Virus record (IMG/VR): IMGVR_UViG_3300014720_000239
Span: 1-20,154 of that record
Length of the DNA: 20,154 nt
Direction: 5' to 3' (one strand)
DNA from: a virus
Positions 14,721-19,913 of this stretch are shown here, piece after piece (position 1 is the stretch's first letter; every line of letters starts with the position of its first letter). The notes under the pieces were generated by a model. The model was not told where the DNA came from. It searched no databases and saw only the letters and a program-made list of their open reading frames with translations. Both the position numbers and the translations under genes were made by a program.

Positions 14721-15632
14721 TTACTCGGCCAGAGCCTTGAAGTAACTCAGATCCTCGTCCTCATCAGTATCAAACGGCACAGTATCTTCAACAGACTTAC
14801 GCGGCTTTGACGACTCAAATGTCGGTTTAGACTGAGTAACTGAATCGGTGATCTGGTCGTTTACTGTACCAGCAGCACCAAGAACTTCATCAAGGCGCTT
14901 CTTCAGTTCATCATAAGACTTGAACTTCTTGGCGTCAACGAATTCCTTGAGTGAGTATTCAGACTTCCAAATCTTCTCAAGTTCACTGTCATCATCAGAC
15001 AGTGGCTTGGGAATATCGAAGGTAGACTGGTCATAGTTCAGATAACCAGCAACCATACGAGTACGAAGCTTGAAGTTAGCGCCGTTCCAAAAATGGAACG
15101 GATTGACAGGTGTATCGCCGTCATATTCAGGATTCATAGCAAGAGTGATCTTGTCGAAAATCTTCTTACCGAAGACGAACAGGAAGACCTTGCCTTCGTT
15201 CTCAGGATTTGCAGGATCCTTGACAACATAGATGTTAGATATGTAATGCAGACGGCGTTTCTGGTCACGGGCCTGCTTGCGCTGCCAAGAGTTGTCATCG
15301 CTAGATGCGTTCCAAAGCTGGGAGTTGTATTCAGAAACAGGATCTTTCTGCCCAAGAGTCGTCAGAGACTTCTCAATGTACCACTTACCAGTAGGACCCT
15401 TGAAGCCATGATCGAAGTAGCGAACCCAAGGAAGTGAATCATCACCGTCTACTGCGGGAGCAGGAAGAAAGCGAATAACAGCAGAGCCGTTACCAGACTT
15501 ATCACGGCTTAACTTCCAGAAACGAGTATCTTCCTCGCGGTCAGAACCCTGAGGCGCGTTGATCTTTTCAATTTCCTTAGTGAGACGGCTGAGGTCAGTT
15601 GAAGAATTCTTGAGGGATGCAAAGTTTAACAT
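14721..15632 (-). CDS. 32: Single-stranded DNA-binding protein gp32
   Basis: gp32 coats single-stranded DNA in T4 replication, recombination and repair. The protein has 303 residues (T4 gp32 has 301). It shows the core OB-fold landmarks: FWKLSRDKSGNGSAVIRFLP, HGFKGPTGKWYIEKS, IYVVKDPANPENEGKVFLFV followed by FGKKIFDKI, and FHFWNGANFKLR. The C-terminus is acidic (DTDEDEDLSYFKALAE), as in T4, where it recruits partner proteins. The N-terminus differs from the T4 basic LAST-type opening. The T4 zinc ligands (His64, Cys77, Cys87, Cys90) are absent: the corresponding stretch reads EKSLTTLGQKDPVSEYN. It has a GGAG site before the ATG, its own promoter and its own terminator. Confidence 0.96.
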   Translation of the reverse strand: MLNFASLKNSSTDLSRLTKEIEKINAPQGSDREEDTRFWKLSRDKSGNGSAVIRFLPAPAVDGDDSLPWVRYFDHGFKGPTGKWYIEKSLTTLGQKDPVSEYNSQLWNASSDDNSWQRKQARDQKRRLHYISNIYVVKDPANPENEGKVFLFVFGKKIFDKITLAMNPEYDGDTPVNPFHFWNGANFKLRTRMVAGYLNYDQSTFDIPKPLSDDDSELEKIWKSEYSLKEFVDAKKFKSYDELKKRLDEVLGAAGTVNDQITDSVTQSKPTFESSKPRKSVEDTVPFDTDEDEDLSYFKALAE

Positions 15633-15721: not shown

Positions 15722-16303
15722 TCATCTGCTTTTCAAGAGGTCTTTGAATTTATTTTTATCAATTTCTCTCAGCAGAAACGGTGCAAACTTCCGTGCTTTG
15801 AAGCTGAACTTGGACCATAGGTAATCATCCTTGAGTTTAGCATCAAACTTAGCCATGAAACCAACGAAAGTATCTAGGATGATGACAGTCTCAAATGACA
15901 CATCACCACGCATATATTCATTCAGTATCATAGGATAACCATTGTCCTCTGTTTTGAACAGAGCCTTGAGGTTATCATATTGTTCTAGTTCATTCTTGAA
16001 AATGTAAGACATGGACTGGACTTTCTTCACATAGCGTTTTGTAGCATCAAACGCTTCATCATCTAACATATCGCCAATCCATGTCTTATCTTGTAAGAGA
16101 CTGACCATGATGTGTATCATTGGGTTGTCACACTTTCTGGCCAGCTTCTCAAACTGAAATCTGTCTTTTCTTGCTAAAAAAGATTCCTTACTAACATGTT
16201 TGACTTTACCATTGTAAAGAAAATAGTCATACTTGTCAAGTGTAAAGTGATTTTTCAGCGCAAGATAAAGACAGTAGACTTCATATCCTGATTGCTTAGA
16301 CAT
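15722..16303 (-). CDS. 59: Helicase loader gp59
   Basis: gp59 loads the gp41 helicase onto gp32-covered forks in T4. The protein has 193 residues (T4 gp59 has 217). The start GYEVYCLYLALKNHFTLDKYD, then ESFLARKDRFQFEKLARK, WIGDMLDDEAFD, and SFETVIILDTFVGF follow the order of T4 gp59 motifs (YKLYLMIKQHM..YDV, YQKRRDKYFFQKL, WIGDISDADA, SFETFILLDSFL). It is helical throughout. Its ATG follows the gp33 stop with no gap (TAAATG), and it is upstream of gp32, its functional partner. Confidence 0.93.
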   Translation of the reverse strand: MSKQSGYEVYCLYLALKNHFTLDKYDYFLYNGKVKHVSKESFLARKDRFQFEKLARKCDNPMIHIMVSLLQDKTWIGDMLDDEAFDATKRYVKKVQSMSYIFKNELEQYDNLKALFKTEDNGYPMILNEYMRGDVSFETVIILDTFVGFMAKFDAKLKDDYLWSKFSFKARKFAPFLLREIDKNKFKDLLKSR

Positions 16304-16531
16304 TTACAATGGAAGTTTCACAGTGTTTGATCTGGGTAGAAAGTTGAGTTCTTCAGCCTCAAGCTGAATCTTTGATTTAAGAGAACCTGAAATGAGTTTC
16401 GCAGCAAGTTCTACTTCAAGCCCAGTTTGCTCACAGTACAGAATAATAGCGTCCATGTAAGGAATTTCCTTCTCTTTGACCATGCTCTCAATAGTCAAAG
16501 AAAAGGTAGTCATCTCATCCTTCGTAGGCAT
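16304..16531 (-). CDS. 33: Late transcription coactivator gp33-like
   Basis: gp33 bridges RNA polymerase (beta flap) and the sliding clamp to activate T4 late promoters. This 75-residue protein is shorter than T4 gp33 (112) but has the compact pattern of gp33 homologues in T4-like marine phages: IPYMDAIILYCEQTGLEVELAA, KLISGSLKSKIQLEAEELNF and a short C-terminal tail (LPRSNTVKLPL) where the clamp-binding end is expected. It lies directly before gp59, an arrangement known in T4, where 33 and 59 are also neighbours. It follows the protease stop by one base without a clear ribosome-binding site. Confidence 0.8.
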   Translation of the reverse strand: MPTKDEMTTFSLTIESMVKEKEIPYMDAIILYCEQTGLEVELAAKLISGSLKSKIQLEAEELNFLPRSNTVKLPL

Positions 16532-16532
16532 A

Positions 16533-17513
16533 TCACTTAGCCTGATCTGGAGTGTAATCCTTGGACAGTCTGAAATTTGTCTTTATGTCAATCATCATCA
16601 ATTCTCCGTTTCTATCAATCAATAGACTAATGTTCTCTTCATCACCCTTGAGTTTGGCCAGTTCGGTAATCATGTCATTAGGATTTGTTACCTTGACACC
16701 GTTTGGAACATTATGTGGGGTATGAATAGCAACAACTTTATCACCCTTTTTGATGCCTGCCTTATCAGCAGCACCACCAGACTCAACTTCATTCAATATA
16801 ACAGAACCACCATCATCTGTCAAGCCCGCTGTCACGTTCATTACACGCCACCGAATTTCATTGAACACATTGAAGTCATGTAAAACTTTTTCCACTAGAT
16901 CAGAAGGGACGCAAAAGCCATATGATCCACCTTCCATTGCAAGCATCAATGTACTGACACAAATAACTTGCCCTCTGTCATTGAAGATAGGACCGCCTGA
17001 GTTACCTTGGAAAAGATTAGCGTCTACTTGAAACAGGAATCTAGGATTCTGACCAGGGCGCCTATCTTTACCAGATACGATGCCTTCAGATACAGTCCAA
17101 GTCAAACCCCACGGATGCCCGATAACAATGACGCGATCACCAAGATTCATCACAGTGCTATTACCGAATGATAGATTGACTGGTGTTTCATTCTTTTCAA
17201 ATAGTTCCCATTCATACAATCTGAGTACAGCAATGTCTGCAACAAAATCTTTATACACGATTGTCGCAGCATACTTTCGTTGTGAGTCATCAGAGTACAC
17301 AGAAATCTTGCCTGGTCCGTCTACGACATGTAGATTAGTGACAATCTGATTATCGTTTACAATGAAGCCTGTACCAGCGCCGCCTTGCGTTGGATTGATT
17401 TCGTTTGTGATGTATACCACACCATCTTTCACATCCGCTACAATATCAGATGTCTTTGCTTTTGCACATCCTACAAGAAATATGGATAAAATAACTGTTA
17501 ATAGATACTTCAT
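16533..17513 (-). CDS. HtrA/Deg-like serine protease lipoprotein with PDZ domain
   Basis: A signal peptide (MKYLLTVILSIFLVGC) ends in the lipobox LVGC, so Cys16 would be lipidated and the protein anchored in the envelope, facing the periplasm. A trypsin-like domain of about residues 30-215 carries a full triad: His62 (TNLHVV), Asp93 (VADIAVLRL), Ser172 (QGNSGGPIF). Residues 225-312 look like a PDZ domain (NEVESGGAADKAGIKKGDKVVAI). This is the HtrA (S1C) layout. The start overlaps the previous stop by one base (TAATG), the fourth gene in a coupled series with ExbB/ExbD-like genes. It could process or guard envelope proteins, or cleave a phage product. An HtrA-type lipoprotein is unusual in a phage. 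Confidence 0.9.
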   Translation of the reverse strand: MKYLLTVILSIFLVGCAKAKTSDIVADVKDGVVYITNEINPTQGGAGTGFIVNDNQIVTNLHVVDGPGKISVYSDDSQRKYAATIVYKDFVADIAVLRLYEWELFEKNETPVNLSFGNSTVMNLGDRVIVIGHPWGLTWTVSEGIVSGKDRRPGQNPRFLFQVDANLFQGNSGGPIFNDRGQVICVSTLMLAMEGGSYGFCVPSDLVEKVLHDFNVFNEIRWRVMNVTAGLTDDGGSVILNEVESGGAADKAGIKKGDKVVAIHTPHNVPNGVKVTNPNDMITELAKLKGDEENISLLIDRNGELMMIDIKTNFRLSKDYTPDQAK

Positions 17514-18103
17514 TATTCAGTTCCTTTCTCAAGCGGAACAGATGGTGCTAATATCTCAACATCAGGTACTTCCGGCTTATATGTGTCTTTCTGTTTGGGT
17601 AATAATCTCTTCATTAGATTTTCAATAGTACCTGCGATAGTATCTGCTTCACCTTCGTCTGCATTTTCAGCAGAGCCTTTGCTGTTCTTTGGCGGTATAC
17701 CATTGATACGAACTTCCTTGCCTTCTTCCATTGCTTTCTTTGCTAGTTCAAATTCAGCAGCGCGGTCGTTTGAGTATTCAACGAAGAATGTCTTTGGTGC
17801 ATGACGAGGGTAATCATACTCATACCATTTCTTGGGTAGTGTGGGGAACAAACTGATATAGATGCCACCATCATCATCGCTGGATGGATTTACGACAACA
17901 ACAGAAGCAAGAAGCCCTTTGACCTCCGCTGGCTCTTCTGCTGGCCATCCTTTTACGCCGTCAAGTGAGAAATAGATTGTGTTAGCAAGAAACACAAACA
18001 TAGCAATGACAACAAATTTTACTATCGTATTGTTCCAGTAGAATGCAACAGCCATTGTCATTGCAGTAAATAGACCTGTCATCAATAATAATGTCTGCGT
18101 CAT
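17513..18103 (-). CDS. Two-TM membrane protein of the ExbB/ExbD-like module
   Basis: The function is unknown. The 196-residue protein has two N-terminal membrane helices (about residues 4-22 and 27-47), then a globular stretch with FSLDGVKGWPAEEPAEVKG, GIYISLF, YEYDYPRHAPKTFFVEYS and FELAKKAMEEGKEV (residues 46-130). I recall a similar arrangement, a GWP/GYP motif then a beta segment, from unannotated proteins of T4-like phages. The C-terminal third is charged and Pro-rich, probably disordered. The ATG overlaps the ExbD-like stop (ATGA), and its own stop overlaps the protease start, so it is locked into the module. Confidence 0.82.
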   Translation of the reverse strand: MTQTLLLMTGLFTAMTMAVAFYWNNTIVKFVVIAMFVFLANTIYFSLDGVKGWPAEEPAEVKGLLASVVVVNPSSDDDGGIYISLFPTLPKKWYEYDYPRHAPKTFFVEYSNDRAAEFELAKKAMEEGKEVRINGIPPKNSKGSAENADEGEADTIAGTIENLMKRLLPKQKDTYKPEVPDVEILAPSVPLEKGTE

Positions 18104-18753
18104 GGTCCTGATACTCCACTTGTTCTGACTGAAACATAATCATTCTTAAACCGAATAATGTTCTTCTTGTCATCCATCACAAAGCGAACGACAGTCTTCT
18201 CTTGCCAGATTGAATCCAGTCTCATCTCAATGTGCTTTACAACAATAAAGTCAGGATTGATACGAACAATCTCAACCTTCAGCGGAACTTCTATCAGTTC
18301 TCCTGCTTTCATTCCAAGATTTGTTTCTTTTCTTAAGCAAGAATATAAGTGAACGTTGACGATATACTCACCTTCAAATGTGCCGCGTAGAGTGACAAAT
18401 TCTTTGTTGTCGGGATCAATCACGATTTCTTTGCCGTCAATCTCATAGACACTGCGGCGCTTGCCTTGATCATCACGCTCAAAGTACATCAGCCCTGATT
18501 CCATCTGACGATATGACACAATGTTATTGAGAGGGTCACGAATCCACAAATCAACATCACAGTCCAATTCATTGGGCCATTCTAGTGTGACAACATAGTC
18601 GGCATTCTTTTTGATGCCGGCTTCGTTTTGTGTGATTGGAGCAATGAGAAGAGTTGTCAACATAAAGATAACAACTGTTCCCATGAGAAGAGCGATCAGA
18701 ATATCAATGTATGCGGTGCGGAAATCAAACTTTCTGCTATTCTTCATCGTCAT
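18100..18753 (-). CDS. ExbD/TolR-like membrane subunit with periplasmic beta domain
   Basis: The N-terminus FDFRTAYIDILIALLMGTVV with following FMLTTLLIAP parallels ExbD/TolR (TPFIDVMLVLLIIFMV). Asp17 sits where the proton-carrying Asp lies (Asp25 of E. coli ExbD). Residues of about 52-125 form a beta domain with DCDVDLWIRDPLNNIVSY, a motif of DUF2135/YfaP-like domains (DVDLWVxDPxG), ending in GEYIVNVHLYS. That is not the usual ExbD periplasmic domain and may bind peptidoglycan, protein or calcium. The remaining part is beta-rich. The frame overlaps the end of the ExbB-like gene by 17 bases. The start could be the ATG at 18753 or 18747; neither has a strong ribosome-binding site. Confidence 0.8.
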   Translation of the reverse strand: MTMKNSRKFDFRTAYIDILIALLMGTVVIFMLTTLLIAPITQNEAGIKKNADYVVTLEWPNELDCDVDLWIRDPLNNIVSYRQMESGLMYFERDDQGKRRSVYEIDGKEIVIDPDNKEFVTLRGTFEGEYIVNVHLYSCLRKETNLGMKAGELIEVPLKVEIVRINPDFIVVKHIEMRLDSIWQEKTVVRFVMDDKKNIIRFKNDYVSVRTSGVSGP

Positions 18754-19195
18754 ATGTTACCGCATATAGCAGTGCTTTTGTGATGAGACTTGACAGAATG
18801 CCTGTAGCATTTGTGTATAGAGCAATACCAAGACCAACAGACATATTAGCAAGTAGAGCAGCAAGACTTGCAGGATCAGCGACAGTAGCGTTTGTGATAC
18901 CTGAAGTGAGAAGATAGATGAAGCCGATAACTGTACCCAACATTCCGAGGGCCAGCATTTGCTCTGAGAGGAACCAGCAAGCATCTACAATCTTGCTTTT
19001 GAAATTCTTTGTATATGAGATATATCCGATAAGACTCATCGTTATAACAAAGAGAATAGCGAGGAGAGATGTAATCATTGTCACATCATCTTGCCAAATC
19101 TTGGTAATGATTCCGTGATAGTATGCCCAGAACATACCAGTAGAAGTGGCTAGAACTGTGACCCACCAGATATAAACTGGCTTTACGACTTTCAT
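18737..19195 (-). CDS. ExbB/TolQ/MotA-like proton channel subunit
   Basis: I chose the ATG at 19195 (152 residues), which has a GAGG site six bases upstream. The longer frame from 19246 overlaps the previous gene and adds a basic, unlikely N-terminus. Predicted membrane helices lie at about residues 7-27, 38-60, 80-100 and 112-145. The last two carry the ExbB/TolQ family hallmark ALGMLGTVIGFIYLLTSG and the following LANMSVGLGIALYTNATGIL. Family members form a pentamer around a dimer of ExbD/TolR and use the proton gradient. It is shorter than E. coli ExbB (244) or TolQ (230), lacking most of the cytoplasmic region. The ExbD-like partner follows at once. Confidence 0.85.
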   Translation of the reverse strand: MKVVKPVYIWWVTVLATSTGMFWAYYHGIITKIWQDDVTMITSLLAILFVITMSLIGYISYTKNFKSKIVDACWFLSEQMLALGMLGTVIGFIYLLTSGITNATVADPASLAALLANMSVGLGIALYTNATGILSSLITKALLYAVTYDDEE

Positions 19196-19226
19196 ACAGA
19201 CCTCGCTATTTTTGCGCTTGTAATAT

Positions 19227-19478
19227 TTAGTCGTTCTTGGACACAAACTTGTTTAATGCTTCTGCCATGTTGATAATACTCTGAGCATCAAGAGATGGCA
19301 TCTTGGGATATGGAGGAAGAGTTACTTCCTTGTTCATTGAAAGAGCAATAGAAGCCTTTTCACGTTCCAGCCCCCAATCATTTTCTAAACGCATACGTTC
19401 GTTCATTAGATTTTCAGTGATGATATTCTGTGCCATGGCAAGAAGTTCGTAGCGTAGTTCATAAGGTGTCTTACCCAT
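19227..19478 (-). CDS. Small unknown phage protein
   Basis: The protein has 83 residues and no recognised function. It starts MGKTPYELRYELLAMAQNII and is mostly helical up to residue 45, then has a Pro-rich link (VTLPPYPKMPS) and a short C-terminal helix. The KTPYE(L/I)R opening is familiar to me from unannotated small proteins of T4-like phages. A strong AGGAG site lies eight bases before the ATG. It is the first gene downstream of the tmRNA and ends 31 bases before the ExbB-like start, so it probably leads the same transcript. Confidence 0.8.
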   Translation of the reverse strand: MGKTPYELRYELLAMAQNIITENLMNERMRLENDWGLEREKASIALSMNKEVTLPPYPKMPSLDAQSIINMAEALNKFVSKND

Positions 19479-19510
19479 ATTATATCTCCTGTGTTATGAG
19501 TGTGTAAAGT

Positions 19511-19540
19511 GGTGGGTTTTCTGTTTCCACGTAACCCACC
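19511..19540 (-). other. Hairpin at the 3' end of the tmRNA coding piece
   Basis: GGTGGGTT (19540-19533) pairs with AACCCACC (19518-19511) around a 14-base loop, nine bases after the tag stop codon. The position suits the terminal helix or pseudoknot of the coding piece. It is not followed by a U-run, so it is not a classical terminator, and transcription may continue into the small gene that starts at 19478. Confidence 0.6.
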
Positions 19541-19549
19541 GAACGCATG

Positions 19550-19594
19550 TTAGGCCGCTAGGGCGTAACGATGAGGAATGTTGTCATTCGCTGC
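19550..19594 (-). other. tmRNA tag reading frame
   Basis: From resume codon GCA (19594) the frame reads AANDNIPHRYALAA and stops at TAA. The start resembles alphaproteobacterial tags (AANDN...), and the end YALAA matches the E. coli tag end that ClpXP recognises. The bases before GCA (TAAAT) parallel the TAGTC before the E. coli resume codon. The non-coded alanine carried by the tmRNA would precede this. Confidence 0.9.
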
Positions 19595-19678
19595 ATTTAG
19601 AGTTTGCTCTGTTTACGACAGTCGCCTCTCGAAATCCTAAGTAAATGTCTACACAAACGTCGATGCCCTTTCATCCCC

Positions 19679-19687
19679 ATAAAGTTA
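19679..19687 (-). other. Intervening spacer of the permuted tmRNA precursor
   Basis: Nine bases (TAACTTTAT) separate the encoded CCA from the 5' GGGG. In permuted tmRNA genes this segment is removed so that the acceptor piece ends in CCA and the coding piece begins with the acceptor 5' strand. RNase P and a 3' processing nuclease would be expected to do so. Confidence 0.8.
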
Positions 19688-19787
19688 TGGTGGAGATGCC
19701 GGTATCGAAACCGGGTCCGTATCATGCTTCGTTTACTATGTAAGACAGTAGCCGATGTTTCTCTACTGAATGTTCCATCTTGCGATT

Positions 19788-19913
19788 CTATTTTTCGCGG
19801 AAAAGTATTTCGAACATGAGATGTTTATCTTTTGATAGTGTATAGGAAGGATTTCCTATAATTTGTAATACCTGTATTTTATCTTCAACGTTTACTAAAG
19901 GAGAATCAAACAT
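19788..19913 (-). CDS. Small protein, 41 residues, unknown
   Basis: A short frame starts at ATG 19913 (MFDSPLVNVEDKIQ...) and ends with TAG at 19788. It has a GAGG ribosome-binding site five bases before the start and lies 38 bases after the phosphatase stop, in the same direction. The product is mixed-charge with no membrane segment, and I recognise no family. It ends just before the probable 5' end of the tmRNA. It contains a perfect 8-base inverted repeat (TATAGGAA/TTCCTATA, 19841-19860), which may be coincidental. Confidence 0.55.
   Translation of the reverse strand: MFDSPLVNVEDKIQVLQIIGNPSYTLSKDKHLMFEILFREK

Follow-up and report, generated by a model that had tools for sequence, protein, structure and literature searches.

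The gene described here, in a T4-like phage, is very probably a complete tmRNA gene of the circularly permuted (two-piece) form, whose product would rescue ribosomes and tag proteins during infection; in general, tmRNA releases stuck ribosomes and marks the unfinished proteins for degradation. The permuted order, an alanine-type acceptor with the G3.U70 pair, a tag frame ending in ALAA, and a place before gp33, gp59 and gp32 can all be read directly in the window, by which we mean the whole 20,154-base stretch of the virus record analysed here. ARAGORN called a permuted tmRNA at 19459-19781 on the minus strand, with the tag AANDNIPHRYALAA, and two Rfam models agreed: RF04321 (tmRNA_permuted) matched 19746-19550(-) with 103.2 bits (gathering score 47, E 1.6e-19), and RF01849 (alpha_tmRNA) matched 19808-19508(-) with 71.1 bits against a cut-off of 50, over model positions 1-355, which is its full length with the 3' hairpin included. 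The first-pass annotation of this DNA had proposed such an element from the letters alone and had named the alpha-tmRNA covariance search as a check; with these three matches the element is confirmed as real and can be placed to the base, as follows.

19508 to 19781, minus strand: gene for the precursor of the permuted tmRNA, running from the acceptor piece through to the coding piece's 3' hairpin (ARAGORN, Rfam).
19688 to 19781, minus strand: acceptor piece, first in the transcript, with an encoded CCA end whose A is at 19688; the probable 5' end is drawn from ARAGORN and a promoter-like site.
19699 to 19714, minus strand: T arm CCGGT-TTCGAT-ACCGG, with 5 pairs and a 6-nt T loop.
19692 to 19698, minus strand: 3' strand of the acceptor stem, CATCTCC, followed by ACCA at 19691-19688.
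19679 to 19687, minus strand: intervening segment (spacer) TAACTTTAT, 9 nt, presumably removed by tRNA-type processing.
19672 to 19678, minus strand: 5' strand of the acceptor stem, GGGGATG, which is the start of the coding piece, with its first G at 19678.
19550 to 19594, minus strand: tag reading frame AANDNIPHRYALAA plus stop TAA (ARAGORN; sequence read).
19511 to 19540, minus strand: 3' hairpin GGTGGGTT...AACCCACC with TGGAAACAGAA in its loop; it corresponds to the alpha_tmRNA model at the 3' end.

In the window, the CCA-bearing 3' acceptor strand precedes the 5' acceptor strand, with the spacer between them, and the two strands (GGGGATG/CATCTCC) pair at 7 of 7 positions and include G3.U70, by which alanyl-tRNA synthetase recognizes tRNA-Ala and tmRNA. 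The tag frame, at 19594-19550, runs to a hydrophobic ALAA end and then to the stop, and the loop of the 3' hairpin is of the GGAAACAGAA type, as in the alpha model. The permuted acceptor strands with their encoded CCA and the tag frame ending in TAA had been recognized in the first-pass annotation, and its nine-base spacer and coding piece start lie exactly where we find them. Its helix 2 stood in part: the strands are at the homologous place and, over 93 phage tmRNAs, own partners pair best (a mean of -8.4 kcal/mol, against -8.0 for the best of 1000 partner swaps, a difference that relatedness inflates), but minimum-energy folds of the window alone prefer another register. A detail that the first-pass annotation did not notice is in the T arm, which has a 5-bp stem and a loop of 6 nt (TTCGAT) where 7 are usual, the exact loop size being typical and not defining; because about 8 distinct phage alleles have the same 6-nt loop, a contig error is unlikely, and RF04321 and RF01849 still score with it.

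By analogy with known two-piece tmRNAs, a single transcript would be cut by host RNase P at 19678 and processed at its 3' side by the host after 19688, with loss of the 9-nt spacer. The two pieces would remain paired and would be charged with alanine by host AlaRS. In 20 related records (fragments, or of uncertain completeness) no SmpB was found, with controls that worked, so that host SmpB is presumably used; with it, the phage tmRNA would free ribosomes stalled on broken mRNAs in infection. To each rescued chain A+AANDNIPHRYALAA would be added, a tag with an ALAA terminus such as host ClpXP recognizes. The phage would probably gain from this in that ribosomes stay free while mRNA is cut, however much host tmRNA there is. 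A phage-supplied rescue RNA with a degradation tag of its own, as had been suggested from the letters alone, is in our opinion the best reading of the locus, although it is one that we infer.

The carrier encodes homologues of gp32, gp59 and gp33, together with a baseplate wedge subunit, a head-closure protein, a DNA end protector and a tail tube protein, and with this gene set its earlier description as T4-like holds. On the same strand, the tmRNA is followed in order by an 83-aa ORF, three unknown proteins, a trypsin/PDZ protease, gp33, gp59 and gp32, and a further contig (L002), 100% identical over 5,161 bases, extends the phage of the window. The landmarks of this neighbourhood and its promoter-like sites are these.

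19785 to 19813, minus strand: weak sigma-70-like promoter TCGAAA-17-TAGAAT, 9/12, in front of the tmRNA; the number of such sites is not above that in shuffles.
19479 to 19508, minus strand: sigma-70-like promoter TTTACA-18-TATAAT, 11/12, directly after the tmRNA and before the next genes.
19227 to 19478, minus strand: 83-aa ORF directly downstream of the tmRNA, of unknown function, kept in relatives.
16304 to 16531, minus strand: gp33-like late-transcription coactivator, the first marker of the tmRNA-gp33-gp59-gp32 order.
15722 to 16303, minus strand: gp59-like helicase loader.
14721 to 15632, minus strand: gp32-like single-strand DNA-binding protein.

The promoter after the tmRNA is stronger than the one preceding it (11/12 against 9/12). 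A T4 late promoter driving the window tmRNA was considered and found unsupported, TATAAATA not being in excess in the window and the upstream site reading AAAAATAG. Upstream of the relatives' tmRNAs, ATAAATA, a portion of the consensus for T4 late promoters, is in strong excess (55 of 114, with 4.8 expected), and 32 of these 55 have it together with a sigma-70-like site. For the ssrA gene of phage Melnitz, the published view is that of an early promoter (PMC9004378).

The protease between the tmRNA and gp33, at 16533-17513(-), is DegP/HtrA-like, with a trypsin and a PDZ domain and a lipoprotein-type signal (LVGC); it has the same place in T4-like relatives and is rare among annotated phages. 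Also downstream of the tmRNA, orf169 and orf217 (18100-19246(-)) form a pair kept in about 20 relatives and, judging from conserved motifs, look like a membrane pair of the TolQ/ExbB/MotA type and the TolR/MotB type. Fold matches of the low-confidence predicted structure of orf169 were mostly to TolQ, ZorA, MotA and ExbB, none of them significant, and for orf217, whose predicted structure is likewise of low confidence, there was no match of this kind and the matches obtained were not significant.

Because blastn of the window tmRNA against annotated phages gave no match, the search for relatives used patterns and the proteins encoded nearby, and these scans of IMG/VR yielded 145 loci with a permuted tmRNA, of which 114 sequences are distinct, including a few of cultured phages; long-spacer records missed by ARAGORN were recovered with RF04321. 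G3.U70 is kept in 113 of the 114 distinct sequences, and LAA is the tag end in 107 of the 112 tags read. Over the same 114, acceptor pairs 4-6 take up to five pair types and all five pairs of the T stem vary, with pairing maintained throughout, so that both stems covary. In T4-like loci where both are visible, Melnitz included, the tmRNA is always upstream of gp33-gp59-gp32 on the same strand; the gene is not in all relatives, Caulobacter phage Cr30 being without a permuted tmRNA. Covariation, G3.U70, LAA ends and synteny are together strong evidence for what is probably a functional, selected RNA, and the pattern of conservation carries what are, at the level of sequence comparison, the marks of selection on structure, charging and degron.

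The tag ends also bear on the possibility that the phage RNA interferes with the host, competing with host tmRNA for SmpB and AlaRS and thereby lowering or redirecting host trans-translation. Such interference is documented in the literature as a proposal for RNAs like that of mycobacteriophage DS6A, which consists of the tRNA-like domain only, and it would suit phages that, in the records searched, bring no SmpB of their own. It requires, however, nothing beyond the tRNA-like domain, yet a tag frame with ANDN...LAA ends is kept in nearly all distinct alleles read, and we consider interference unlikely and rescue with tagging the preferred reading.

Some members of the collection are worth recording in their own right. 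Two contigs (L031:7373-7782 and L032:7344-7753) are identical just upstream of the tmRNA and differ in T arm, acceptor, spacer and helix 2, each set being consistent within itself, which suggests that the tmRNA was replaced by recombination. The cultured jumbo phage Phosso of Sinorhizobium carries an unannotated permuted tmRNA (L128:3028-3442) with the tag ANDNVSTKVALAA and a 410-nt spacer in which no clear ORF was found. Three contigs classed as viral (L006, L007 and L021) have a permuted tmRNA with the long, unusual tag AKKSTTFASILPVKVERVSLVQEALAASA.

In the relatives the spacer interior is hypervariable, while 91 of the 99 distinct spacers of at least 20 nt are closed by a terminal stem of 7 or more complementary pairs, where shuffling predicts 4.2 such spacers. 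The less expected result of our analysis is that nine distinct alleles hold a homing-endonuclease-like gene in the spacer, on the tmRNA strand. The 9-nt spacer of the window has no endonuclease ORF, and such ORFs are found only in relatives, at the following places.

L048:7097-7428, tmRNA strand: HNH-like gene in spacer.
L070:4887-5373, tmRNA strand: HNH-like gene in spacer.
L142:4893-5389, tmRNA strand: HNH-like gene in spacer.
L165:1985-2470, tmRNA strand: HNH-like gene in spacer.
L236:3975-4499, tmRNA strand: HNH-like gene in spacer.
L302:2429-2960, tmRNA strand: HNH-like gene in spacer.
L316:2425-2950, tmRNA strand: HNH-like gene in spacer.
L298, around 2488-2990, tmRNA strand: HNH-like gene in spacer.
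L098:3200-3715, tmRNA strand: LAGLIDADG-like gene in spacer.

Seven of these spacers (L070, L142, L165, L236, L302, L316 and L298) encode related HNH proteins, that of L048 a different HNH protein, and that of L098 a LAGLIDADG_1 protein. Pfam matches are marginal (E 1e-4 to 3e-3), and PHROG matches to HNH/homing endonucleases, for the three proteins searched, are firmer (E 1e-14 to 1e-25). Occupied spacers are mostly closed by the terminal stem, and the stop of the ORF often overlaps the conserved TTTATGAT before the acceptor; in six alleles the TGA stop lies within the conserved TTTATGA-T just ahead of the first acceptor base. The acceptor of L298, read by eye, is GTGCCGG/CCGGTAC, with G3.U70 retained. 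The L070 type was seen in five contigs from five data sets, and L142 shares 95% of the coding piece with an insert-free relative, so that the insert comes and goes. In L302:2429-2500 and L316:2425-2500, late-promoter-like TATAAATA motifs stand before the HNH ORF in an inverted repeat that extends to its presumed ribosome-binding site; some homing-endonuclease genes of T4 are likewise preceded by a late-promoter motif and an inverted repeat. Small ORFs of about 40-60 aa in the spacers of L042, L119, L201, L121, L127 and L221 had no family match where tested and were not counted as genes.

Group I introns with homing endonuclease genes are found in the T loops of tmRNA genes (PMC11915505), and these too are removable segments of a tmRNA gene that hold such a gene; in the relatives studied here, by contrast, the gene sits in the spacer of a permuted tmRNA and would be removed by tRNA-type processing, without splicing. 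The same 2025 tmRNA database paper has endonuclease genes only in group I introns; among permuted spacers it lists one that holds a tRNA gene and another that holds a repeat (PMC11915505). Our literature search, which covered openly accessible full texts, found no report of endonuclease genes in permuted tmRNA spacers, and this finding is apparently new. We see an even chance that, in the phage group of this tmRNA, the permuted layout has served as a splice-free "intron", in which a spacer removed by tRNA processing became a bay, closed by a stem, that is open to the insertion and spread of homing-endonuclease genes and leaves the tmRNA unharmed, the window representing a very short, unoccupied form.

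A further proposal would be that endonucleases in the removable spacer are what keeps the locus in part of the phage group, the tmRNA offering them a conserved target that needs no splicing. It is consistent with the HNH or LAGLIDADG ORFs of nine distinct alleles and with close relatives, with and without the insert, that share up to 95% of the coding piece. But with 9 nt in the window spacer, and with most alleles by far lacking an endonuclease gene, it cannot account for why the tmRNA itself is conserved, and we hold this proposal to be quite improbable. A captured host gene carried as a passenger, with no selected function in the phage, is very improbable, for even though the fit to the alpha_tmRNA model indicates that, at some point, the gene was probably acquired from a bacterial source, an unselected RNA would decay, and what is seen in many phages is deep divergence with compensatory changes, a fixed G3.U70, and conserved tag ends and synteny.

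A tmRNA gene carried by a phage has known counterparts. Mycobacteriophages Bxz1 and Wildcat and Bacillus phage G likewise encode a tmRNA with a tag; theirs are one-piece as far as known, and these phages are not T4-like. The closest counterpart is the two-piece tmRNA that Buchholz et al. reported in 2022 in the T4-like methylophage Melnitz (MZ577097), alongside 53 two-piece structures among 18,146 phage genomes and a two-piece tmRNA in 17 of 47 Melnitz-related contigs (PMC9004378). Melnitz likewise combines a T4-like phage, an alpha-type permuted tmRNA and the order ssrA, gp33, gp59, gp32, its ssrA standing directly before gp33, and because its locus has this same order, the window is one more case of the published type, which is on record from a few marine phages. 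The view of the first-pass annotation that such an RNA is unusual in a T4-like phage is thus only partly right, given that publication and the recurrence of this arrangement, at the corresponding locus, in dozens of related phage contigs. What sets the window apart from Melnitz is a 9-nt spacer where Melnitz has 142 nt, a 6-nt T loop, a different tag, other genes between the tmRNA and gp33, and the lack of any Rfam riboswitch match in the window, whereas in Melnitz a glutamine riboswitch comes right after the RNA. A glutamine riboswitch next to phage ssrA is common, and is not defining (PMC9004378). The two-piece tmRNAs of alphaproteobacteria (RF01849, e.g. Caulobacter) have the same gene order, an alanine acceptor, an AANDN...LAA-type tag and a 3' loop of the GGAAACAGAA type; spacers have a median of 86.5 nt in T4-like phages (92 distinct), compared to 3-53 nt in 29 alphaproteobacterial loci.

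An alphaproteobacterial host had also been proposed, and the RNA does fit the alpha model, but this is a weak pointer, as the Melnitz tmRNA fits it too (106.7 bits) and Melnitz infects Methylophilales, which are not Alphaproteobacteria. The acceptor pattern was also tried as a means of assigning a host, and rejected: the only cellular genome sharing the acceptor pair of the window in the pattern scan was a Rickettsiales MAG (L262:3246-3302), whose tmRNA has a long tag, AKINFANDNIAQNEDVRLKAVAFA, very unlike that of the window. Nearest-sequence scoring of the window tmRNA ranked other phages first and gave no host pointer.

Cultured relatives, Melnitz among them, make it possible to test why a lytic phage should carry a ribosome-rescue RNA of its own. 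The endonuclease genes found in the spacers of relatives suggest, in addition, a further way, besides introns and inteins, for a mobile gene to reside inside a conserved gene without cost.
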